Positions 1-11,162 of a stretch of DNA of 11,162 nucleotides are shown one piece after another; position 1 is the first letter of the stretch; every line of letters begins with the position of its first letter. The position numbers and the translations under genes are program-made. The notes under the pieces are model-generated. The model did no database searches and was not told the DNA's origin. It worked only from the letters and a program-made list of their open reading frames with translations. This DNA is from Bifidobacterium breve (GTDB taxonomy: Bacteria; Actinomycetota; Actinomycetes; Mycobacteriales; Mycobacteriaceae). The DNA is taken from contig CALQLM010000008.1 in assembly GCA_943331415.1 (NCBI GenBank), forward strand, positions 1 through 11,162. Reading direction: 5' to 3'.

Positions 1-3000
1 ACGGATTTCACGATCTGACTGACCTCGGCGAGAAGCTGGGTTGAGCTGGCACTCGCCACGTCCATCACCGGCAATGCGATCGGGTAGATCGGGGAGAACC
101 CACCGACTGTCCGGCGGAAGTCCACCTCCGGACGTAGCACCGACCGTCCGGCGCCGGCAAGGTCAACCGCAGCGACACCGTCGCCGAGGGTGACCGCCAG
201 TCGACGCGCCAGCGCAGCCAGCAGGATCTCCTCGGTCGAGGCCTTCAGCAGCCGCCGGGCGTTGTCGGTCTGCGACGTCTGATCGGGGGTCAGCGCCGTC
301 GGCACTCTGATCAGATCGCCGGGCCCCGGCGAGCCAGCTTCTCCTGCCCCGGCCAACCGCAACGACGCCATCCTCGCCGTATCGATCCAATAGTTCCGCC
401 GCTCCAGCACGGCGGGATGGGAGGCCAGCGCCGCATAGCGTTGCGACCACTCCCGCCAACTCGTGGTCGCTGGCTCCAGGGCGATGTCACTGCCGGCTAA
501 CCGCTGCCCGAACCCCATGAGCAGGTCGGTCACCAAGACCTCCCGCGAGGTGGGGTCATCGACCATCGCATGCAGAGTCAGCACCAGGAACCGTGGCTCC
601 GCCTGCGCGTCGACGACATAGGCGGCCGTCAGCGGCCCGCCGCTCAGATCCTGTGCCGCGATGATGTCATCGACGATCCCCAGCAGCGCGTCCCGCTCCG
701 CACCGCTACCCGGCCCGGCCGCGGCGGGCAGTGCCCGCTCGGTCAGGTCGACGAAATCGTCGGGATCACTGATCTGCTGCTCCCAGATTCCAGCGTTGTC
801 GACCACCCGCATGCGCAGTGCGTCATGGTGATTGACCACCGCGGTCAGAACCGCCGTGACATCGGCCGCACTTACCCGGGAATCCAGGCGCAGGACCAGA
901 GGCACCCGCCAGCGACCAGGTTCGGCAAGTCCATTGTCGAGGAAGCGCAGGATGTTCGGCGGGACCTGGGGATCCAGATCTCCGATGTCCTGACTGGCCA
1001 GTCCGCCGGCGGCCTGGCGTGCGACCAGGGTGTCGGCCAGTGCACTGAGACTGGAATTGTCGTAGAGGTCCTGGGGGGTGAGTTCGACACCTTCGTGCGA
1101 CGCGGTCATCGCGACGCCGATCGCAACCAGCGAGTCACCGCCGATCTCGAAGAAATTGTCTCCCGGCGCAACAGATTCCACCCCAAGGCACTGCGACCAG
1201 ATCCGCTGCAGGGTTGCCTGCATTTGTGCCCGAGCGTCCACCGGTGCACCGCCCTGACCGTTGGCCGACGAGGCCTCGGTTGCTGATGCGCCGCCCTGGC
1301 CGCCCGCACCGGTCGTCCGCACTGCGGCGGTATCAGGTTCGATCCAATGCTGTTGGCGCGCAAAGGCATAGCCGGGCAACGTGACGCGCTTCGGGTGCTC
1401 GCCGTACAACCTCGTCCAGTCCACCGCGACGCCGACCGCCCACAGTTGCCCCAGCGCGAGCAGGAAGGCATCCCGATCGTCGCGGGTCTGTACGGGGTGG
1501 CGCATCAGGCGGACCGCGCGGTGGGTCTGGGTCCATCCGGGAAGACGCACGGCCGAACCGGTGAGACTTCCGCCGGGTCCAACCTCGACAAGCACCCGAT
1601 CGGAATCATCGAGTAGTGCCGAAACATTGTCGGCGAACCGGACGGTGGACCGGAGGTGCTGGGCCCAACGATTCGGATCGGTGGCCTCCGCGTCGGTCAT
1701 CCAGGTACCGGTCACGTTGGAGAGTATCGGGATTCGAGGCGCGTGCAGAGTAAGACCGGAGAGGAATTCGGCGAAGGGCTCCAGGACCGTATCCATCGCC
1801 TGGGAGTGGAACCCGTGCGAGGTGCGGACCCGCCGGGCAACGATGGCTTCGGCGGCAAGGCGATTGGTGAAGTCGCGGATGGCCTCCACGGGGCCGGCAA
1901 CCACGCAACTCCCGAATTCGTTGATGGCGGCGAGGTCGACGTCGGCGGTCATCTGGGCGGCGATATCGTTGGGACTTGCCGCCACGGCCACCATGGCGCC
2001 GGGAGGCGCCTCATGCATCAGGCGTGCCCGCATCGAGACGACCCTGATCGCCGTGTCCAGGTCGAAGACCCCCGCCAGGGTGGCGGCCACCAGTTCGCCG
2101 ATGCTGTGTCCGGCAAGCGCGGTCGGAGCTACGCCGAAGGACATGACCAATTGCGCCAGCGCGTATTCCACCGCGAACAGTGCCGGCTGGGCCAGGTTGG
2201 TGGGCTCCAGTCCGTTCGGCTGCTGCTCGCCGGTGCCGAGCACCTCGGCCTTCAGATCGATTCCCAATTCGGCGTCGAAACCGGCGACACACCGGTCGAA
2301 GTTCTCCCGGAATACAGCCTCGGTGTCGTACAGGCCGCGTGCCATGCCGACATGCTGGGCGCCCTGACCAGGAAACAGGAACGCCACCTGCGCCGCACCC
2401 CGTGTTGCACCCGCGGGGCAGTGGCCGATCGAGACGTTCTCGTGCTCGGCGGCGGCCAGCACGACACATGCATCGGCGCGGTCGGCCACCACGGCCGCCA
2501 TCCTGACCTCATGCTGCCGCCGGCTGGCCAGGGTGAATGCGACATCGGACAGTGACAGGTTTTCGTCCCTGGCGAGCTCGGCAGCCAGTGCGGACCTGGC
2601 ATCGTCGAGTGTCCCGGGGGTGCGGGCCGACAACAGCAGTACCTGCGGACCGTCCGGGCCGGCGGCGACTGTGGCAGGCTCCGGCGCCTCCTCGAGGACG
2701 ACGTGCGCATTGGTGCCGCCCACACCGAAGGAGCTGACCCCGGCCCGGCGGGGACCGTCAGATTCCCATGGCGTGTAGGCGTTCGCCACCACGAACGGCG
2801 TGTCCTCTAAGTGCAGTTCGGGATTGGGAGCGGTGTAGTGCACGGTCGCGGGAATGGCCTTGTTCTTCAGACACAGGATGGTCTTGACCATGCCGGTGAC
2901 TCCGGATGCCGCATCGAGGTGGCCGATGTTTGACTTCACCGACCCCAGAACACACGGGCTCGACCGCGTGATTGTGGAGAGCTTGAAAGCCTGTCGCAGC

Positions 3001-4034
3001 GCCTCGATTTCGATCGGGTCGCCCAGCGGGGTGCCGGTCCCATGGGTCTCCACAAACCCGATTGTCGAGGAGTCGACATCGGCGACAGCCTGCGCCTCGG
3101 CGATGACCTCGGCCTGCCCGGATACGGTGGGCGCGGCATAGGTCATCTTCATCGCGCCGTCGTTATTGATCGCTGATCCGCGGATCACTGCGTGGACCCG
3201 ATCACCGTCCTCAAGTGCGGCCTGCAGCGGTTTGAGAATCAACGCGGCAACGCCGCTGCCGAAGATGGTCCCATCGGACCGAACGTCGAATGGTCGGCAG
3301 TGACCCGAGGGAGACATCATCGCACCCGGTTCGAAGGTGTACCCGACGTGATGCGGAACCCGGATCGCCGAGGCACCGGTCAGCGCCAAATCGCATTCGC
3401 CGGCCAGCAGGCTCTGACATGCGAGGTGCACCGCGACCAGCGACGACGAACATGCTGTCTGCACCGACACACTCGGCCCACGCAGGTTCAGTTCGTGCGA
3501 CACCCGAGTTGCCAGGTGATCCTTGTCGTTGAGCAGCACCAGGTTGAACATCTCGACGGTGATTCCCTCGCCGACCAGCTTCCTGGTGTCGCGGTGTGAC
3601 ATCAGGTTGTCCATCAGGTAGCCACTGGAGGTGCTGCTGGCGAAAACGCCGATCGTCCCGTCATAGGTGACAGGGTCGTATCCGGAGTCCTCCAGGGCAT
3701 GCCAGGAGGTCTGCAGGAACAAGCGCTGCTGCGGATCCATCATTCGCGCGGTGTACGGGGTGATCCCGAAGTATTCGGCGTCGAACTCGTCAATCCCGTT
3801 AAGCATGGCCGCACGGCGGACGTAGGCGGAATCGGCAAGCGTCTTAGCACTGACCCCGGCGGCGGTGAGTGCCTCCTCGGACAATGTGGTGATCGATTCC
3901 TCACCGTGGCGCAGGTTGTCCCAGAACTGGGTTAGCGAGTCCGCGCCGGGAAAGCGGCCAGCCATTCCGATGACCGCAATCGCGTTGGGCGGCAACTCAT
4001 TCGATACGCCTACGTTCGCGTTCTCTGTGGTCAC
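1..4034 (-). CDS. ppsE: PpsE-like type I polyketide synthase, KS-AT-ACP-condensation; 3' end beyond window
   Basis: This is a terminal extension module of a phthiocerol-type assembly line, expected to act on the chain delivered by the PKS encoded upstream. The frame is open without a stop from a GTG at 4034 to the left edge, about 1344 residues; M. tuberculosis PpsE is about 1488, so roughly the last 150 are missing. Domains: KS at about 16-450 (nucleophile Cys195 in TACSSS, His331 in THGTGT, His372 in NIGHLD); AT at about 548-860 (GHSIGE, Ser644; specificity motif HGFH 740-743); a Gly/Ala/Ser/Gln-rich linker; ACP with FFEIGGDSL (phosphopantetheine Ser968); a condensation-type domain from about 1023, with HAMVDD at 1155-1160 and RRTVGGFSPIYP near the edge. 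No KR, DH or ER is present, so the added unit should keep its keto group. The GTG start is chosen because it overlaps the upstream stop as GTGA and has GGAAAGGA eight bases upstream. Family recognition comes from close recall of M. tuberculosis PpsE, including AIAVIGMAGRFPGA and the ACP-C region. The symbol is by homology; the product may differ. Confidence 0.9.
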   Translation of the reverse strand, partial: MTTENANVGVSNELPPNAIAVIGMAGRFPGADSLTQFWDNLRHGEESITTLSEEALTAAGVSAKTLADSAYVRRAAMLNGIDEFDAEYFGITPYTARMMDPQQRLFLQTSWHALEDSGYDPVTYDGTIGVFASSTSSGYLMDNLMSHRDTRKLVGEGITVEMFNLVLLNDKDHLATRVSHELNLRGPSVSVQTACSSSLVAVHLACQSLLAGECDLALTGASAIRVPHHVGYTFEPGAMMSPSGHCRPFDVRSDGTIFGSGVAALILKPLQAALEDGDRVHAVIRGSAINNDGAMKMTYAAPTVSGQAEVIAEAQAVADVDSSTIGFVETHGTGTPLGDPIEIEALRQAFKLSTITRSSPCVLGSVKSNIGHLDAASGVTGMVKTILCLKNKAIPATVHYTAPNPELHLEDTPFVVANAYTPWESDGPRRAGVSSFGVGGTNAHVVLEEAPEPATVAAGPDGPQVLLLSARTPGTLDDARSALAAELARDENLSLSDVAFTLASRRQHEVRMAAVVADRADACVVLAAAEHENVSIGHCPAGATRGAAQVAFLFPGQGAQHVGMARGLYDTEAVFRENFDRCVAGFDAELGIDLKAEVLGTGEQQPNGLEPTNLAQPALFAVEYALAQLVMSFGVAPTALAGHSIGELVAATLAGVFDLDTAIRVVSMRARLMHEAPPGAMVAVAASPNDIAAQMTADVDLAAINEFGSCVVAGPVEAIRDFTNRLAAEAIVARRVRTSHGFHSQAMDTVLEPFAEFLSGLTLHAPRIPILSNVTGTWMTDAEATDPNRWAQHLRSTVRFADNVSALLDDSDRVLVEVGPGGSLTGSAVRLPGWTQTHRAVRLMRHPVQTRDDRDAFLLALGQLWAVGVAVDWTRLYGEHPKRVTLPGYAFARQQHWIEPDTAAVRTTGAGGQGGASATEASSANGQGGAPVDARAQMQATLQRIWSQCLGVESVAPGDNFFEIGGDSLVAIGVAMTASHEGVELTPQDLYDNSSLSALADTLVARQAAGGLASQDIGDLDPQVPPNILRFLDNGLAEPGRWRVPLVLRLDSRVSAADVTAVLTAVVNHHDALRMRVVDNAGIWEQQISDPDDFVDLTERALPAAAGPGSGAERDALLGIVDDIIAAQDLSGGPLTAAYVVDAQAEPRFLVLTLHAMVDDPTSREVLVTDLLMGFGQRLAGSDIALEPATTSWREWSQRYAALASHPAVLERRNYWIDTARMASLRLAGAGEAGSPGPGDLIRVPTALTPDQTSQTDNARRLLKASTEEILLAALARRLAVTLGDGVAAVDLAGAGRSVLRPEVDFRRTVGGFSPIYPIALPVMDVASASSTQLLAEVSQIVKS

Positions 4035-7000
4035 ACCACACGTCCTTTCCGTCTACCCACCTGGGCTCCCTGGCGGGCTCGGGCGCGTTGCTGGGCGCGC
4101 GCCCCGAGGCCAGGTCGGCCAGCAGCCAGCGAATCATCCGCTGGCGGGTAACCCATCCGCTCACACAGTGCGTCGGTGAGAGCGGAGATGGTCGGGTACT
4201 CGTAGATGACTGCTGCGGGCAGTGTGATGCCGAGGCTCGCGCTGAGGCCACGCTGAAGCGTGACGCTCATCAGCGAATCCATACCGAGCTGGAAGAAACC
4301 GACCTCTGGATCCAAAGTGTCCGCCGACGATAGTCCCATCACATCTGAGGCCAACGTTCCAATGTGGTCGGCGAGTAACTCTCGACGTCGTTCCGGCACA
4401 GACTCGCGCAAAGCTTTCGCGAACTCGCTCTCCGGCAGGTCCGCATTCGATGCATCGATTTCGGCTAATACGTCGTCAACCATGCGCAGCGCACCACGGG
4501 TTCGATATGCCGCTGCCAGCAGAGGCCAGTCAGCGTCCACCACGGCGGACCGCACTGGGGTGTCGGGGCCCATCACCATCGACAGCGCGCGAATGGCCAC
4601 CTCGTCGGACATCGGCACGAGACCCGAATCAGAGGTCACCTGGCTGGTGTCGGATTGCAGATCGGCCAACGATTTCCACAGCCCCCAGTTCACGGTGGTG
4701 GCGGGCAGTCCAAGATTCCGACGCGCATAGGCGAAGGTATCGAGGAAGGTACTCGTCGCCGTGTAATGGGCGAGCCAGCGGGATCCAAGCAAACCGGAGA
4801 TCGACGAGAACAGCACGAAATGCCGGATATCCCTCTTTAGCGACAGCGCGTGCAGTACACCGAGGGCATCCAACTTCGGACGAAACATAATGGCGACATC
4901 CTCGTCGGTCATGCCGGACAACGCCACGGGTCCGCCGGCGAAAGCCGCCAGATAGATGCCCTCAAGGGCCGGGAGATCGGAACCAAACCGCTCGAAGAGC
5001 GTCGACATCGCAACTTCGTCTGTGGCGTCAGCAGCGACCTCGATGAGCGTCGTCCCCGCCGACGAGAGTCGCTGGGCCAGTTCGTTGAGCCGCCCACCTG
5101 GGTTTCGCGACACGGCCACGATCGTTCCTGCACCCATGTCAGCCAGTTGTTGGATCAAGTGCGGACCGATATGGCCGGTGGCTCCGATGACCAGATGGCT
5201 GGTGTCGGGGCCGATCACCTCCGTCGATGCCGACCACGGCGCGACATGTTCCAGACGCGGCACATGGCGGGCGCCAGCCCGATACACCACTTGATCCTCA
5301 CCGTCACCGGCCTGAGCCTCGGTGAGGACACGTCGGGCAGTTAATGCCGCAGGCATCGACTCATCGACATCGATCACGCCTGCCCAGATTTCGGGGTGCT
5401 CCAGCGCAAGCGTGCGGCCCAGCCCCCAGAGGACAGCGTGGGTGGCATTGGCTCGGTCGCCTTCGATAACAGGCTGGGCGTTGCGCGTGACGATGAACAG
5501 TTTCGGCGGCGAAGACATCGAAATGAGTTCTTCAACAAGGGCTCTGGCCTCGTTGAAAAGATCGTAGGCCGATTCGATGTCGAGCAGGGTACCGGTGGAG
5601 GGCGGCGCGAACACCACGTTGTCTACCTGGGCGAGCGCGGCGCGCAGTACGGCCCTCTCGCTGCAGTGCGCCAATCCCCGACCAAGCTCGGTGCCTAGGT
5701 CCGCATCACCGATGACGAGCCAGGGCCCGGCAATACCGGCATCGGCTACCGGTAACGGTCGGAGCTGCCACGTCGGCTCGTACAGCCAGTCTGCCGGAAT
5801 GGGGCTGTCCTCCGGCCGCAGCAGACGTTTTCCGTTCCGGCTGGATCCACTGAATCCGGCTCTGGACAACGCCGGTGCCATGTCGATCCAATGCCGAGTG
5901 TGACGCCACGGCGTAGTCGGGATGACGGGGTGCGGCTCCGGCGGGTGTGCACCGAGTGGTGCCCGCGCCGTATGCGTCGCGTTGAGGTTGGTGTGAAATG
6001 CGACCGTGTCATGGGCGTCACGCTGCAGTGTGCCGAGACTGTGGTGATGCGCATTGCCGATATTCGGCTCATCGAGCGTGTCCGAAATCGCCCTGCTGAG
6101 CACGGGGTGCGGGCTGATCTCGATGAAGGTGCAGTGGTTCGCACCGGCGGCCGCGATCGCCTGGCTGAACCGAACCGGGTTGCGGACGTTGGCCACCCAG
6201 TGGTCGGCGCCGAATAGCGCCGCAGGGTCCGCCTGGTCGACTGTGCTGAACACCGGGATCCGCGGCACCTGCGGCGCCAGAGAAGCCAACTCGGTTCGAA
6301 GCTCGTCCAGAATCGGATCCATCATCGCAGTGTGGGAGGCCACCTCCATGTTCACCCTGCGGGCGAAAACATTCTGCTCACGAGCCGCCGCGATCACCGC
6401 ATCGACCAACTCGGTCGGCCCGGCAACGACAGTCTGTCGTGGGGACGAATACACCGTCACCGTCACGCCGGGGTAATCGGCGATCAGTGCCTGGGTCGCG
6501 GAAGCGTCGAGCTCCAGCAACGCCACCGCGCCCTTCTCAACGAGCTGCGACATCAACTGCGATCGGCTGGCGATCACCCGTAATCCCTCAGCTGGGCTCA
6601 GCACGCCGGCAACCACTGCAGCAGAGACCTCGCCCATCGAATGGCCGATCACCGCATCAGGTTCCACACCATAGGAGCGCCACAGCGCCGTCAGTGCCAA
6701 CTGGATACCGACCAACACCGATTGGACCCGCACCGAGCCTTCCACCGGCTCTTGGTTGGCTAACACATCACGGAGCGAAAACCCTAGCTGCGCAACGAAG
6801 TCAGGCTCCAGTTCCGCGATGGCGGCGGCGAATGCCGGCTCATCGGCAAGTAACTGCCGTCCCATGCCCGCCCACTGCGATCCCTGACCCGAATACACGA
6901 AGACCGTGCCCGAACCGCACTCTCCCGGATGCGGGCCGACAACACCGGTTGCGGGCTGTCCTGAAGCCAGCGCACGGAGGCCGGCCACTGCCTCGTCACG

Positions 7001-8788
7001 GTCGGTTGCGCACACCGTGCCGAAAATCGGGTGATGAGTCCGATGGTGATTAAGTGTGTGCGCGATATCGGCCAATGGCACCTGCGCGCCCGCAGCGGTC
7101 ATCCAGTCAGCCAGCGTGGTGGCCATCTCGGCCATGCGCTCTACGCTCTTTCCGCTGACCACCAACGTGCTTACCGGCGAGATCGTCGCCGGCTCCGGCT
7201 CGCTCATCTCGGGTGCCTGCTCAAGCACGATGTGGGCGTTCGTGCCGCCGAAGCCGAACGATGACACACCCGCGAGACGCGGACGGCCGGTTTCCGGCCA
7301 ATCGGTCGCTTCAGCAACAACTTTCAAGCGCAGCTGGTCGAAAGGAATGTGCGAATTCGGCGTATCGAAGTGCAGATTCGCCGGGATCGTGCCGCGCTGT
7401 ACCGCCAGGGTTGCCTTGATCAGGCCGACGATGCCCGCAGCTGCCTCCAGGTGGCCGAGATTGGTCTTGATCGCACCGGCCAGCAGTGGCGCATCCGGCT
7501 GCCGGCCCCGCCCGTAGACCGCGCCGAGGGCACGGGCTTCGATGGGGTCGCCGAGCAGTGTTCCGGTGCCGTGCGCCTCGACATAGTCGACCTCTGCTGG
7601 CTGGATACCCGCATCGGCGCATGCGGCACGCAACACCGCCGCCTGGGCGGCCGGGTTGGGCGCCATTAGTCCATTGGAACGCCCGTCTTGATTAACCGCT
7701 GAGCCACGTACGACCGCGAGCACCTGATCGCCGTCGCGAATAGCGTCGGAAAGTCGTTTGAGCACGGCCACCCCACAGCCCTCGCCGCGGACGAAGCCGT
7801 CAGCGGCCGCGTCGAATGCGTGACAGGCGCCGGTGGGCGACATCGCTTCGGCAGCATCGAAGCTGCGCGTCACGACTGGCGACAGGATCAGGTTCACTCC
7901 AGCGGCAATCGCCAGTTCCGATTGGCCGGTGCGCAGGCTTTGGCATGCCAGGTGCACCGCCACCAGTGACGACGAGCACGCGGTGTCCACGGTGAGCGAC
8001 GGACCACGCAGGTCGAGGAAATAGGACAGCCGGTTGGCGATGATGCTCAGGGCACCGCCCGTTCCGGTCCAGGCGTCGATCTTGCTCAAGTCGCGCGAGG
8101 CGAGGTAGCCGTATTCACTCACACAAGAACCGACGAATACTCCGGTTTGGGAACGCTGCAGCGTTTCAGTCGGGATGCCGGCATGTTCAAATGCCTCCAC
8201 GGCGACCTCGAGCAACAATCGTTGTTGCGGATCGATCCGGTCGGCTTCCCGCGGCGTGATGCTGAAGTATTCGGCGTCGAAGGCATCGATGTCGTTGAGG
8301 AATGAGCCCCACTGCGTAGTGTGCGCCAACGCCGAAGCCGTTTGCGGCGTGCCGTCGTCGAACGGCGCCCATCGCCCGTCGGGCACTGTGGAAATCGCGG
8401 AACGGCCGGCGGCCAGGAAATCCCACAGCGCGTCCGGGCCGTGAATGTCTCCGGGAAGTCGGCAGCCGAGTCCGATGATCGCGATCGGCTCGTTCGATAT
8501 GCCGGCGGTGACACCGGGCACGGCGCCGACCGCCTCCGAATCTCCGGCCAGCAGCGCAGCGGCAAGCGCGTTAATCGTGGGGTTCTGCCAGAAGTCGACC
8601 GGTGAGACAGGCTGCCCGAGGTGCTCGGACAGTTCGCCGGACAGGACGACGGCATCACGTGATCCGACGCCCAATTCGTTGAATGGAGCGTCGAGGTCGA
8701 TCTCCTCTGGACTGCATCCGAGATTCGTGATGAGGTAGTCGACCAGCCAGTGACGAAGTTCGGCGTGGGCGTCTCCCTCTTGGGTCAT
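4031..8788 (-). CDS. ppsA: PpsA-like type I polyketide synthase, ACP-KS-AT-KR-ACP
   Basis: This is probably the first extension module of a phthiocerol-like pathway: it would accept a fatty acyl group from the FadD26-like ligase on its N-terminal ACP, add one unit and reduce it to a beta-hydroxy acyl chain. Domains by residue: ACP about 10-80 (LGVGSRD, Ser43); KS about 101-525 (Cys271 in TACSSS, His406 in AHGTGT, His446 in NLGHLE); AT about 628-920 (GHSMGE, Ser717; specificity motif VASH 816-819); KR about 1000-1430 (GATGHIG 1202-1208, Lys1305, Ser1329, Tyr1342); C-terminal ACP about 1465-1548 (LGMDSL, Ser1505). No DH or ER is seen between AT and KR. The whole protein, including the N-terminal stretch LRHWLVDYLITN and the KR stretch SRWLAHYTATS, matches what I remember of M. 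tuberculosis PpsA, although that protein is longer (about 1876 residues as I recall). The last 30 or so residues are a basic Arg/Ala/Gln tail. The ATG overlaps the fadD26-like stop (ATGA), with no clear Shine-Dalgarno site. PpsB is the main alternative, but it lacks the N-terminal ACP. Confidence 0.93.
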   Translation of the reverse strand: MTQEGDAHAELRHWLVDYLITNLGCSPEEIDLDAPFNELGVGSRDAVVLSGELSEHLGQPVSPVDFWQNPTINALAAALLAGDSEAVGAVPGVTAGISNEPIAIIGLGCRLPGDIHGPDALWDFLAAGRSAISTVPDGRWAPFDDGTPQTASALAHTTQWGSFLNDIDAFDAEYFSITPREADRIDPQQRLLLEVAVEAFEHAGIPTETLQRSQTGVFVGSCVSEYGYLASRDLSKIDAWTGTGGALSIIANRLSYFLDLRGPSLTVDTACSSSLVAVHLACQSLRTGQSELAIAAGVNLILSPVVTRSFDAAEAMSPTGACHAFDAAADGFVRGEGCGVAVLKRLSDAIRDGDQVLAVVRGSAVNQDGRSNGLMAPNPAAQAAVLRAACADAGIQPAEVDYVEAHGTGTLLGDPIEARALGAVYGRGRQPDAPLLAGAIKTNLGHLEAAAGIVGLIKATLAVQRGTIPANLHFDTPNSHIPFDQLRLKVVAEATDWPETGRPRLAGVSSFGFGGTNAHIVLEQAPEMSEPEPATISPVSTLVVSGKSVERMAEMATTLADWMTAAGAQVPLADIAHTLNHHRTHHPIFGTVCATDRDEAVAGLRALASGQPATGVVGPHPGECGSGTVFVYSGQGSQWAGMGRQLLADEPAFAAAIAELEPDFVAQLGFSLRDVLANQEPVEGSVRVQSVLVGIQLALTALWRSYGVEPDAVIGHSMGEVSAAVVAGVLSPAEGLRVIASRSQLMSQLVEKGAVALLELDASATQALIADYPGVTVTVYSSPRQTVVAGPTELVDAVIAAAREQNVFARRVNMEVASHTAMMDPILDELRTELASLAPQVPRIPVFSTVDQADPAALFGADHWVANVRNPVRFSQAIAAAGANHCTFIEISPHPVLSRAISDTLDEPNIGNAHHHSLGTLQRDAHDTVAFHTNLNATHTARAPLGAHPPEPHPVIPTTPWRHTRHWIDMAPALSRAGFSGSSRNGKRLLRPEDSPIPADWLYEPTWQLRPLPVADAGIAGPWLVIGDADLGTELGRGLAHCSERAVLRAALAQVDNVVFAPPSTGTLLDIESAYDLFNEARALVEELISMSSPPKLFIVTRNAQPVIEGDRANATHAVLWGLGRTLALEHPEIWAGVIDVDESMPAALTARRVLTEAQAGDGEDQVVYRAGARHVPRLEHVAPWSASTEVIGPDTSHLVIGATGHIGPHLIQQLADMGAGTIVAVSRNPGGRLNELAQRLSSAGTTLIEVAADATDEVAMSTLFERFGSDLPALEGIYLAAFAGGPVALSGMTDEDVAIMFRPKLDALGVLHALSLKRDIRHFVLFSSISGLLGSRWLAHYTATSTFLDTFAYARRNLGLPATTVNWGLWKSLADLQSDTSQVTSDSGLVPMSDEVAIRALSMVMGPDTPVRSAVVDADWPLLAAAYRTRGALRMVDDVLAEIDASNADLPESEFAKALRESVPERRRELLADHIGTLASDVMGLSSADTLDPEVGFFQLGMDSLMSVTLQRGLSASLGITLPAAVIYEYPTISALTDALCERMGYPPADDSLAAGRPGLGARAQQRARARQGAQVGRRKGRVV
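4043..4050 (-). promoter_or_regulatory. Ribosome binding site of the ppsE-like gene
   Basis: On the minus strand GGAAAGGA lies inside the last codons of the ppsA-like gene, eight bases before the GTG at 4034. This supports the GTG start and the GTGA stop-start overlap. The corresponding fadD26-ppsA junction has no comparable purine-rich site. Confidence 0.7.
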
Positions 8789-10530
8789 ACCGCTATATCT
8801 AACCGGTTAAATTCGCCGCCGCGGTATAGATCAGCACATGATGACCGACGGATCTTGCCGCTGGTAGTGATGGGGATCGAGCCGGGCGACACCAGAACGA
8901 GGTCGCCGACGCGGAGGCTGTGCTCCTTCCAGATCGCAGTCTTCACCGCGCGGCTGACGGTGTTCAGCTGCGAGTCCTGTTCGTCAGCGTCCGCCGGCTT
9001 GAGTTCAACGATCGCCACGAGGTTCTCGCTGGAGTCATCCTCGACGGCGATCGCAGCGACGCGCCCCCCGGTGATCTCCCGGATGGTGGCCTCGATGTCA
9101 TCGGGGTAGTGGTTGCGGCCGTCGACGATCAGCAGATCCTTGAGACGGCCCATGATGAAAAACTCACCATCAGAGAGTGCACCGAGATCGCCGGTACGCA
9201 GCCACGGCCCGGCAGGGGTGCCCGGGGACGGATTGCTAATCTGAGCACGGAAGACACTGGCGGTGAGCTCAGGCTTCTGCCAGTAGCCCAGCGCAACGTT
9301 GTCGCCGCAAACCCAGATCTCGCCGATGGAGCCCTCCGGCATCTCGATCCCGGTCTCCGGGTCGACGATGCGGACCGGGTAAGCCCGCGGAGGGCCGTAG
9401 GTGACGAGTTCGGTGCTGGCCTCCTGGCCTGCCTCGCAGCGCAGCGCGACACCGGCGGCCAGTTTCGCAAGGTCGAAGTGGGCAGTGCGAACTGGGTCCG
9501 CGACGTCGGGCGTGGCCACGTACAGCGTCGCCTCAGCCAGACCGTAGGACGGCTGAACCACCCGGTCCTTGAGTCCAAACTTGGCGAAGCGGGTGACGAA
9601 GCGATTGACGGTTGCCGAGTGCACACGCTCTGCACCACTGAGGATCACGTGGACACGGCTCAGGTCGAGCCCTTCCATATCGGCGTCAGAGGTTCGACGC
9701 GCCGCGAGCTCGAAGGCGAAGTTGGGTGCGCCCGAGAAGCAGTGCGGGTGCTTGGCCATCAGCTGGATCCAGCTGGCGGGCTTCAGCAGAAACGCCAGCG
9801 GGCTCATCAGCACCGCCTTGCGCCCGGTCACCAGGGGTGAGCAGACACCCATGATCAGCCCGAGATCGTGGAAAAAGGGCAACCACGACACAACCGTGGT
9901 CTCTTCCGGCAGCGAGGTGGTGCCGAAATAATCGAGCATGATCTGCTCGACATTGGATGTCACGTTTCGGTGCGAGACGATCACACCGGCCGCCGTTCGG
10001 GTCGATCCCGAGGTGTACTGCAGATAAGCCGGGCCGGAACGTGAATGGTCGGTGGTGTCCAGTGCCCGGGTCGCGTCGAAATCGAGCAGATCGACCTCAA
10101 TGACGGCCGGCGCCGGCCGACCACCCTGACCAGAGGCGTACTTGTTAACGTCGGCAACCGCGGACGACGTGGTCAGCAGCACAGTGGGCATGCTGTCCTC
10201 CAGCGCAGAGGCCACCCGCTGGTCGTGCACGCCGAATTGCGGCACCGACAAAGGAACAGCGATGAAGCCCGCCTGAAGTGCACCCAGGAAGGAGACGATG
10301 TAGTCCAGGCCCTGCGGAGCCATAATCGCGACCCGGTCGCCGGGAGCACCGTGCAGACGCAACTCTTCGGCCAGGACAAGGGACTTGCGGTACAGCTGGG
10401 CCCAGGTGAGCACCTCGGCCTCGCCGGTGCCGGTCACCTCGGGGTCCATAAAAACGTAGGCGGTTGCATCCGGCTTTTCGGTAGCACGGCGCAGGAGCAG
10501 AGCAGGGAGGGATAGATCGGTCTGCATCAT
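8785..10530 (-). CDS. fadD26: FadD26-like long-chain fatty acyl-AMP ligase (FAAL)
   Basis: The enzyme activates a long-chain fatty acid as acyl-adenylate and passes it to the N-terminal ACP of the adjacent PKS, providing the starter unit. The protein has 581 residues; FadD26 and FadD28 have about 580. Visible motifs are the nucleotide loop YTSGSTRTAAG (172-182), WLPFFHDLGL (216-225), SYGLAEAT (328-335), RTGD (445-448), GRNHYPDDIEATI (471-483) and the C-terminal ITTSGKIRR with Lys559. Residues about 335-375 fit the extra segment that separates FAALs from acyl-CoA ligases. The C-terminus RLDIAV is nearly that of FadD26. The frame stays open upstream to an ATG at 10755, but I chose 10530 because GAAGAGG lies nine bases before it, the protein then begins as the family does (SLPALLLRRA), and the longer form would run through the putative promoter. 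The stop overlaps the ppsA-like start by four bases. FadD28 or FadD29 types are alternatives, but position next to ppsA favours FadD26. Confidence 0.93.
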   Translation of the reverse strand: MMQTDLSLPALLLRRATEKPDATAYVFMDPEVTGTGEAEVLTWAQLYRKSLVLAEELRLHGAPGDRVAIMAPQGLDYIVSFLGALQAGFIAVPLSVPQFGVHDQRVASALEDSMPTVLLTTSSAVADVNKYASGQGGRPAPAVIEVDLLDFDATRALDTTDHSRSGPAYLQYTSGSTRTAAGVIVSHRNVTSNVEQIMLDYFGTTSLPEETTVVSWLPFFHDLGLIMGVCSPLVTGRKAVLMSPLAFLLKPASWIQLMAKHPHCFSGAPNFAFELAARRTSDADMEGLDLSRVHVILSGAERVHSATVNRFVTRFAKFGLKDRVVQPSYGLAEATLYVATPDVADPVRTAHFDLAKLAAGVALRCEAGQEASTELVTYGPPRAYPVRIVDPETGIEMPEGSIGEIWVCGDNVALGYWQKPELTASVFRAQISNPSPGTPAGPWLRTGDLGALSDGEFFIMGRLKDLLIVDGRNHYPDDIEATIREITGGRVAAIAVEDDSSENLVAIVELKPADADEQDSQLNTVSRAVKTAIWKEHSLRVGDLVLVSPGSIPITTSGKIRRSSCADLYRGGEFNRLDIAV

Positions 10531-10539
10531 GCTGATCAA

Positions 10540-10546
10540 CCTCTTC
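10540..10546 (-). promoter_or_regulatory. Ribosome binding site deciding the fadD26-like start
   Basis: GAAGAGG on the minus strand sits nine bases before the ATG at 10530-10528. A second ATG follows directly, so translation could begin at either of two consecutive Met codons; the first has the better spacing. This site argues against the upstream in-frame ATG at 10755. Confidence 0.7.
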
Positions 10547-10634
10547 GCTATCGGTGTAACGGTCCGGGTGGTGTACCCGTGGATCGCAGATCCGGAGATT
10601 GACGAACACATCAAGGCCGGTCGCAAGCCAGAAC

Positions 10635-10666
10635 TGAGCGCGCTAGCACTCAACCGTGAGCGCTCA
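10635..10666. promoter_or_regulatory. Two tandem palindromes in the fadD26-like leader, possible operators
   Basis: The plus strand shows an 18-base imperfect palindrome with outer arms TGAGCGC and GCACTCA around a TAGC-type centre (10635-10652), then a perfect 10-base palindrome TGAGCGCTCA (10657-10666). All arms share the half-site TGAG(C/T)GC, and the two centres are 18 bases apart. They lie downstream of the promoter candidate and upstream of the ribosome binding site, where a repressor could block transcription; the larger one could also fold as an RNA hairpin with one G-U pair. The palindromes are seen in the sequence; their function is inferred. Confidence 0.45.
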
Positions 10667-10689
10667 TCGCTCCCCCAATCTATCAGCTT

Positions 10690-10718
10690 AGTGTAATACT
10701 CGCCCGGGGAGGCGGCAA
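10690..10718 (-). promoter_or_regulatory. Candidate sigma-70-type promoter for the fadD26-pps operon
   Basis: On the minus strand TTGCCG (10718-10713) and TACACT (10695-10690) are separated by 17 bases. Each box matches its consensus at four of six positions. Transcription would begin near 10683 and leave a leader of about 150 bases before the fadD26-like ATG. The placement agrees with the known promoter position upstream of fadD26 in M. tuberculosis, but the boxes are imperfect and overlapping choices (TATTAC) exist. Confidence 0.4.
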
Positions 10719-10918
10719 GATTGGACCTGCCCAAACACTCTCGGGCACACTCCAAACGTTAGCTGTGATGTAGATTACCGCTGACCTCAGATCCGAGAAT
10801 ATAGTTACTGAACTGGATATTCAGTCGGTGCTTACGGCGTGCACAGGCTAACTTCAGCCAATTGATCAACTTGCACGGCAAACAGATACCCGGGGCACCT
10901 TGTGCTCTTAGCTAAATC

Positions 10919-11162
10919 TCAGCTACGGCCCTGTCGGCGGTGCTCGCAACCCGCCAGAATCCGCTCCTCCATCCAGTGGGCCAGTTGCGGCAGGTTGTCG
11001 TTCATATAGAAGTGACCGCCGCTGAAGACCGTCAGGTCGAAAGTCGCGGTGGTCCGCTGCTGCCACGGCGACATCAGTTCCTCGGTGCCTAACTCATCGT
11101 TGTCGGCCATCATCGCGTGGATCGGGCAGGAAACCTTCGCCTCCGGCGGGCTCTCGTAGCCA
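10919..11162 (-). CDS. tesA: TesA-like type II thioesterase, C-terminal part only (5' end beyond window)
   Basis: About 80 C-terminal residues of an alpha/beta-hydrolase thioesterase are visible, from GYESPPEAK to the TGA at 10921-10919. Type II thioesterases release or edit chains on PKS carrier proteins; in M. tuberculosis TesA is needed for PDIM formation and has been reported to bind PpsE. The fragment contains CPIHAMMADND, where an Asp of the catalytic machinery is expected, and GGHFYMNDNLPQL with the catalytic His. It matches what I remember of the TesA end (SCPIYAFIGDKD and GDHFYLNDNLPEL) almost position for position. The serine nucleophile (GHSMG) and start lie outside the window. The order tesA, fadD26, ppsA is that of the PDIM locus. 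The 388-base gap suggests separate transcription from the PKS operon. Confidence 0.88.
   Translation of the reverse strand, partial: GYESPPEAKVSCPIHAMMADNDELGTEELMSPWQQRTTATFDLTVFSGGHFYMNDNLPQLAHWMEERILAGCEHRRQGRS

Follow-up and report, generated by a model that had tools for sequence, protein, structure and literature searches.

A two-module phthiocerol-type synthase line in mycobacteria with a PpsA::PpsC chimera, probably formed by recombination within acyl carrier protein sequences

The phthiocerol dimycocerosate (PDIM) locus has the gene order tesA-fadD26-ppsABCDE-drrABC-papA5-mas, and its acyltransferase PapA5 esterifies the 1,3-diol geometry in phthiocerol. The DNA described here, contig CALQLM010000008.1 (contig C8; 11162 bases, analysed whole and hereafter called the window), belongs to a mycobacterial metagenome-assembled genome (MAG) of 1.89 Mb in 371 contigs and carries a condensed form of this locus, in which a PpsA-type module directly precedes a PpsE-type module. 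The PDIM pathway has been described (PMC1238737), as have species with missing pps genes (PMC3089613). In the PDIM line of M. spongiae, a changed product is likewise predicted from the arrangement of modules and domains; there the configuration of the diol changes, and module loss is not described in the accessible part of the report (PMC11361433). M. shigaense is reported to have homologs of both ppsA and ppsE but not the full PDIM set, the accessible text giving no layout, fusion or line (PMC6015043). Within their accessible portions, these four papers mention neither a two-module line nor a fusion nor a docking swap, and no two-module Pps line was found in the literature at the level of titles and abstract openings, subscription papers and preprints aside. 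In mini-stambomycin, according to the accessible part of its report, distant subunits are likewise brought together by taking out internal modules and matching the docking domains (PMC8792006). That system is engineered and gives shunt products, whereas the line in the window is natural and its break lies inside an acyl carrier protein (ACP) domain; the same text describes laboratory module removal as largely inefficient.

The window resembles the PDIM locus in the set and order of its flanking genes, in the phylogeny of its PpsA and PpsE, and in its PapA5- and TesA-type enzymes. It differs in having two extension modules instead of five, in a PpsA that ends as a PpsC with a tail predicted to dock onto PpsE, in the WS/DGAT and short-chain dehydrogenase/reductase (SDR) genes beside papA5, and in a Mas gene that does not adjoin in this genome. 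The longer lines of environmental mycobacteria and Tsukamurella (L095, L096, L098, L106) likewise hold a PpsA-type module, PpsE and drr, with papA5 in three of the four and none in the stretch read of L096. Unlike the window, they retain two or three modules that separate PpsE from the last PpsA-type module, and a module with dehydratase (DH) and ketoreductase (KR) domains precedes PpsE.

The first synthase in the window, PKS2, is a PpsA::PpsC chimera. Together with the PpsE-type PKS1 it probably forms a two-module phthiocerol-type line that arose when recombination inside the ACP sequences deleted ppsC from a line of the order A-C-E. The genes of interest, all encoded on the minus strand, are the end of tesA, a fatty-acyl-AMP ligase (FAAL), PKS2 and PKS1. 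A first-pass annotation, made from the letters alone, had proposed a condensed tesA-fadD26-ppsA-ppsE order lacking ppsB, ppsC and ppsD, with the PpsA-type stop overlapping the PpsE-type start. Pfam, a ketosynthase (KS) tree and contig C46 of the same genome confirm the order, and the overlap reads GTGA. The features of the two synthases are as follows (AT, acyltransferase).

4031..8788, minus strand: PKS2, PpsA-type, 1585 aa, ACP-KS-AT-KR-ACP plus tail (Pfam, domain map, KS tree)
8519..8764, minus strand: PKS2 N-terminal ACP, predicted acceptor of the acyl starter (Pfam, domain map, motif)
7364..8491, minus strand: PKS2 KS (Pfam, domain map; PpsA-type group in the KS tree)
5963..6904, minus strand: PKS2 AT with VASH loop (structure matches, loop comparison)
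4673..5200, minus strand: PKS2 KR (Pfam, motif)
4154..4378, minus strand: PKS2 C-terminal ACP, chimeric, PpsA-type first part and PpsC-type end (site scoring)
4228..4240, minus strand: putative ppsA/ppsC crossover, PKS2 residues ~1517-1521 (best split at residue 1521)
4034..4153, minus strand: PKS2 C-terminal tail, ARAQQRARARQ...GRRKGRVV (tail comparison)
4031..4034, minus strand: overlap of PKS2 stop and PKS1 start, GTGA, 4 nt (sequence)
3..4034, minus strand: PKS1, PpsE-type, first 1344 aa, KS-AT-ACP-condensation, running off the contig edge (Pfam, KS tree, identities)
2835..3983, minus strand: PKS1 KS (Pfam, domain map)
1566..2381, minus strand: PKS1 AT with HGFH loop (Pfam, loop comparison)
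1020..1229, minus strand: PKS1 ACP (Pfam, motif)
12..923, minus strand: PKS1 condensation-type terminal (C) domain, incomplete (Pfam PF00668)

A quick KS tree, built from 96 rows after 3 out of 99 were dropped, assigns PKS2 to the PpsA-type group (SH-aLRT 99) and PKS1 to the PpsE group (SH-aLRT 100). PKS2 has the N-terminal ACP, the KS-AT-KR-ACP order and the KS of a PpsA; a PpsA-type C-terminal tail is missing, its place being taken by the PpsC-type ACP end and the tail that goes with PpsE. PKS1 combines the KS-AT-ACP-C arrangement with a PpsE-group KS. It is 72-95% identical to its own PpsE clade, 71% to L093, and 56-62% to other PpsE proteins among the matches listed; the nearest relative with a named record, L091 (Mycolicibacterium sp.), reaches 95% in PpsE. 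These identities and the KS tree uphold the earlier assignment of the left synthase to PpsE and to no other family. The motifs of KS (Cys/His/His), AT (Ser), ACP (Ser) and C domain (HxxxD) are present, so that the claim of intact catalytic residues stands for these domains; the active-site serine of TesA lies outside the 80 aa found in the window. Contrary to what had been supposed, the gene set is not complete within the window, since tesA is represented by its last 80 aa and PKS1 is cut inside its C domain by the contig end.

The KR of PKS2 carries Y-TATS, as do the PpsB-type KRs of G045, G006 and G080, so the departure from the textbook Asn is normal in the family. A PpsB-like identity of PKS2 was considered, its best match in G016 and G022 being the second synthase (62-63%), and was rejected because the KS tree groups this second gene and PKS2 with PpsA. 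The first synthase of these two genomes is a PpsC-type duplicate by its KS and stands ahead of the PpsA-type gene (L036-L039); no drrA was seen after their ppsE, and G016 resembles the Mycolicibacter record L101. In G209, the nearest relative, PKS2 (L070:3-4765) appears in two overlapping frames, which may be an error due to low coverage (cov 7.3).

PKS2 is PpsA-like up to residue ~1520, inside the C-terminal ACP, and continues with the ACP end of PpsC and the tail of a module that precedes PpsE. To locate the breakpoint, the PKS2 sequences of 18 genomes were aligned, from the KR to the end, with the PpsA and PpsC of the A-C-E lines, which gave 167 diagnostic sites. For the clade majority it fits 147 of 148 informative sites, with 0/10000 permutations as good; left of residue 1521 all 133 sites are PpsA-like, and to the right 14 of 15 are PpsC-like. 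The window itself fits at 148/151 informative sites, a value reached by none of 10000 permutations, and every one of the 18 two-module sequences splits at residue 1521 or 1524. A second reference set came from longer lines: five PpsC together with seven modules whose KR is of the same kind, four of them PpsA-type and three PpsB-type. The PpsA of G080 and that of G417 were aligned too but did not enter this set. Scored against it, the window has its split at residue 1526 (105/110 sites), with 8 C-like and 2 A-like sites to the right. No split appears in four controls, the PpsA and PpsC of G127 and G370 scored against the longer lines. A single origin of the chimera in the 18 members is the simplest reading. 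Both the chimera and the A-C-E lines go beyond the first-pass annotation, which could not see them.

A sample of 396 genomes from the genus yielded 166 with a PpsE-like match at E <= 1e-180, and the ppsA|ppsE junction was read directly in 17 of the 396 (G000, G209, G142, G139, G275, G283, G333, G407, G161, G041, G329, G398, G083, G303, G122, G227, G362). G418, reached by another route, brings the number of genomes with this junction to 18; the annotation had proposed checking related genomes for the shared gene order. Two junction carriers, G161 and G329, consist of two contigs each. G362 may not be an independent case: its contamination is 6%, a longer line is present as well, and its short-line contig is nearly identical to the one in G275. 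The cut members of the window's PpsE clade are G268 (76%) and G362 (82%); the junction of G268 is split between contigs and is not counted in the 18. G127 and G370 have the A-C-E layout, their extra module grouping with PpsC in the KS tree (99). Record titles suggest that L091 and L147 (SupBloom_Metag MAGs) and L104 ('LakeFargette', 'LacPavin') likely come from lakes.

Queries with PpsD and PpsC in G000, G161, G329, G139, G083, G209 and G398 recovered only PKS2 (55-61%), all else lying at or below 45% with one exception, among the candidates scored (for example 59/99 in G083 for PpsD and 50/124 in G161 for PpsC, with G000 incomplete and its six relatives better assembled). The exception, a 558-aa KS piece on contig C138 of G000 with 51% identity to the PpsD query, is Mas-like (63% to a Mas-type synthase). 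Positive controls gave 100% in G413 (PpsD query) and 77% in G370 (PpsC query). With PKS2 as query, standing in for a dedicated PpsB query, no further match in G161 or G329 exceeded 48% (at most 25 candidates were scored in each genome, at an E limit of 1e-150). In the plasmid collection, all matches stayed below 60% identity.

A further set comprised 40 PpsE loci in 39 genomes. PpsE is preceded by a DH-KR module in 35 of them and by a module with a KR and no DH found in four (G178, G207b, G168, G103), with G163 undetermined. A module with an N-terminal ACP directly precedes PpsE in 0/40, with G178 cut at its 5' side, where one could be hidden. The last four modules of G158 follow the order A-C-D-E, and in G416 a KR module without DH stands before PpsE. 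A KS-AT-ACP module in which no reductive domain was found occurs in L177 (G413), L213 (G207b), L227 (G168) and L240 (G103), in each case after a PpsA-type or KR module.

The module adjoining PpsE is marked by its C-terminal tail. The pattern RAQQRAxAR, written after seeing a first set, is present on 31/31 modules next to PpsE and on 0/30 others there, with three modules undetermined, including that of G139, which does carry the tail outside this count. At loci not used for writing the pattern, the tail is found on 35/40 PpsE-adjacent modules and 0/61 others, and the five misses show the same tail with one substitution. G111 of the test set is probably the same record as G413 of the first set, which leaves 39 new loci, and as many of the genomes are related these counts are not independent events. 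In the A-C-E lines (G127, G370), the PpsA tail stays on PpsA and the PpsE tail sits on PpsC, whose sequence turns from PpsC-type to PpsD-type once the ACP is passed. The G416 module joins a PpsA/B-type KR to a PpsD-type ACP and tail. Breakpoints of three kinds occur, inside, after and before the ACP, and at least three modes of shortening seem to have operated in this pathway. The tail is predicted to dock PpsA straight onto PpsE, because of this rule and of the general role of C-terminal docking domains given in the accessible part of PMC8792006. It is likely that ppsA and ppsC recombined within their ACP sequences, which deleted ppsC and re-docked PpsA onto PpsE. For the wider scheme, a stepwise loss of modules at ACP regions from A-B-C-D-E through A-C-D-E and A-C-E to A-E with the tail retained, leaving lake mycobacteria that make an undescribed short 1,3-diol diester, the chances are about even.

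The remaining features of the window concern the genes around the two modules.

10919..11161, minus strand: tesA-type thioesterase, C-terminal 80 aa only, running off the contig edge (open reading frame)
8785..10527, minus strand: fatty-acyl-AMP ligase in the FadD26 position, 580 aa, likely start at 10527 (NCBIfam NF004509)
1..91, no strand: window end common to contig C46 (L029), 87/91 bases the same

The ligase scores 881 bits against NCBIfam NF004509 (fatty-acid--AMP ligase; cut-off 775) and also matches the FadD23 and FadD28 structures in PDB. It adjoins the first Pps module, as FadD26 does in the PDIM locus, its gene overlapping that of PKS2 in ATGA. The TesA piece shares 64% identity across 77 aa with the complete TesA-type protein of G161, which in turn matches TesA of PDB 6fvj with 249 bits. 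Contig C46 continues with 174 aa of PpsE, drrA, drrB, drrC, papA5, WS/DGAT (on the opposite strand), SDR and a CMD-family gene. What follows ppsE is drrABC and papA5, as in the PDIM locus, and not ppsB-D; in place of five collinear synthases PpsA-E, only PpsA and PpsE types stand between the ligase and drrA. In members whose contigs are long enough, drrABC, papA5, WS/DGAT, SDR and the Mas-type synthase are co-conserved, with exceptions: of the 12 short-line loci that extend that far, 10 have WS/DGAT after papA5, and G142 and G275 lack it. PapA5 matches 1q9j over its whole length (residues 1-411, 370 bits). A Mas-type gene follows SDR in G161, G329 and G418, and G209 has a full-length Mas-like gene elsewhere, on contig C25.

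The synthase in the Mas position of G142 (L071:13714-19149, with a matching end in L074 of G275) is itself chimeric: Pps modules are the closest match to its KS-AT half (62-70% to PKS2), and Mas is the closest to the half with DH, enoylreductase, KR and ACP (59-84%). In L077, L081 and L191 (G407, G041, G122), a second FAAL and an ACP-KS-AT synthase lie upstream of the short-line FAAL. In G407 this synthase ends in a thioesterase by Pfam and is followed by a carboxyltransferase, an arrangement like FadD32-Pks13-AccD4, the mycolate condensation set. Beyond the Mas-type gene of G161 (L080:13502-19129) lie four luciferase-like oxidoreductase genes, considered as ketoreductase candidates. The fourth is an F420 glucose-6-phosphate dehydrogenase, the first falls below its cut-off, and the second and third pass the MsnO8 and NtaA/DmoA group cut-offs.

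Among solved structures, the PKS2 AT comes closest to the AT of PpsC (425 bits) and that of PpsA (399 bits). Its loop reads VASH as in Mas, whereas the PpsA and PpsC AT structures have VAPH, and VASH is found in 16/16 short-line PKS2 measured, G209 and G362 not among them. Such loops report extender choice only in part, according to the accessible text of PMC8044089. In the proposed pathway, the ligase would load a long acyl chain onto the N-terminal ACP, and PpsA would add one unit, predicted from VASH to be methylmalonyl, its KR making a beta-hydroxyl. PpsE would then add the last unit with no reduction, its HGFH loop being taken here as malonyl-like. With one step reduced and the other not, hydroxyl and ketone would stand 1,3 to each other, and TesA-aided release with loss of CO2 would yield a beta-hydroxy-ketone. 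The neighbouring SDR would reduce this to a 1,3-diol, PapA5 would esterify it with methyl-branched acids from the Mas-type synthase, and DrrABC would export the product. Five units would not be expected from two non-iterative modules, and the product is predicted to be a shorter wax than the phthiocerol type. The locus may represent a distinct lipid pathway, as first proposed.

Several observations weigh against these readings. The genome of the window is 63% complete, and the stretch right of the breakpoint offers few informative sites, 15 in the clade majority, with 1 A-like among them. Support reaches 100/100 for the clade as a whole, made up of 21 genomes (G127, G370, G268 and the 18 short lines); within it, a concatenated tree holds the 18 short lines and G268 together at 54/82 only. 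PpsE alone does put G127 and G370 outside (93/91), a node that is not starred and leaves the direction unproven, and the quick KS tree pairs the PpsA of G370 with that of G329 (90). Between ppsE and SDR, G142 and G275 are without drrABC and WS/DGAT, and PapA5 falls below the NCBIfam equivalog cut-off (best 502 against 716 bits). No Mas-type gene stands between SDR and CMD in the window's genome (C46) or in G209 (L070), and G000 shows only the partial Mas-like gene on C138. VASH is also found in PpsA-type modules of longer lines, and a methylmalonyl switch unique to the short line was rejected on this ground.

Of the rival explanations, a working line for some other lipid, such as a wax ester made through the frequently adjoining WS/DGAT (10/12 loci), and not a dimycocerosate (DIM)-type diester, retains the most and is still unlikely, as PapA5, TesA and the Mas-type synthase, mostly with DrrABC, make up the DIM set. 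It is quite improbable that the two-module line is the older one and that A-C-E gained ppsC by insertion at the ACP. The poorly resolved clade base would allow this, and one insertion would explain both G127 and G370. Set against it, the ACP end of PKS2 is PpsC-type also when compared with the PpsC of longer lines (8 sites to 2), as expected if PpsC was once there, and lines with a PpsC-type module between A and E are found elsewhere in the genus.

That the locus is a decaying PDIM remnant from which no lipid is made any more has very little probability. The MAG and several relatives are small, PKS2 of G209 reads in two frames, and mas is absent from the locus in the window's genome and G209; yet the frames are open in the window and, up to the contig ends, in the other short lines, the catalytic motifs and 4-nt gene overlaps are kept, and the dN/dS of the two modules is 0.11-0.19 (12 of 15 comparisons). 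Values for PpsC of the two A-C-E genomes (0.21), papA5 (0.16) and drrA (0.19) are given for comparison. Purifying selection, the DIM-type neighbours and conservation in 18 genomes support the earlier view of a line that probably works. An assembly or binning artefact, in which ppsA and ppsE collapsed over similar KS/ACP repeats of the kind at which assemblers fail in so fragmented and incomplete a MAG, can practically be dismissed, because the junction and chimera recur in the independent, diverged assemblies of 18 genomes, including the two-contig G161 and G329.

Natural shortening seems to have been repeated within one pathway, each time retaining one short tail. If the tail docks as predicted, these lines would offer engineers proven break sites together with a simple docking rule. 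A two-step line beside PapA5 predicts a simple diol lipid, whose chemistry is directly testable. In conclusion, the short lines suggest that DIM-type pathways serve mycobacteria outside hosts too.

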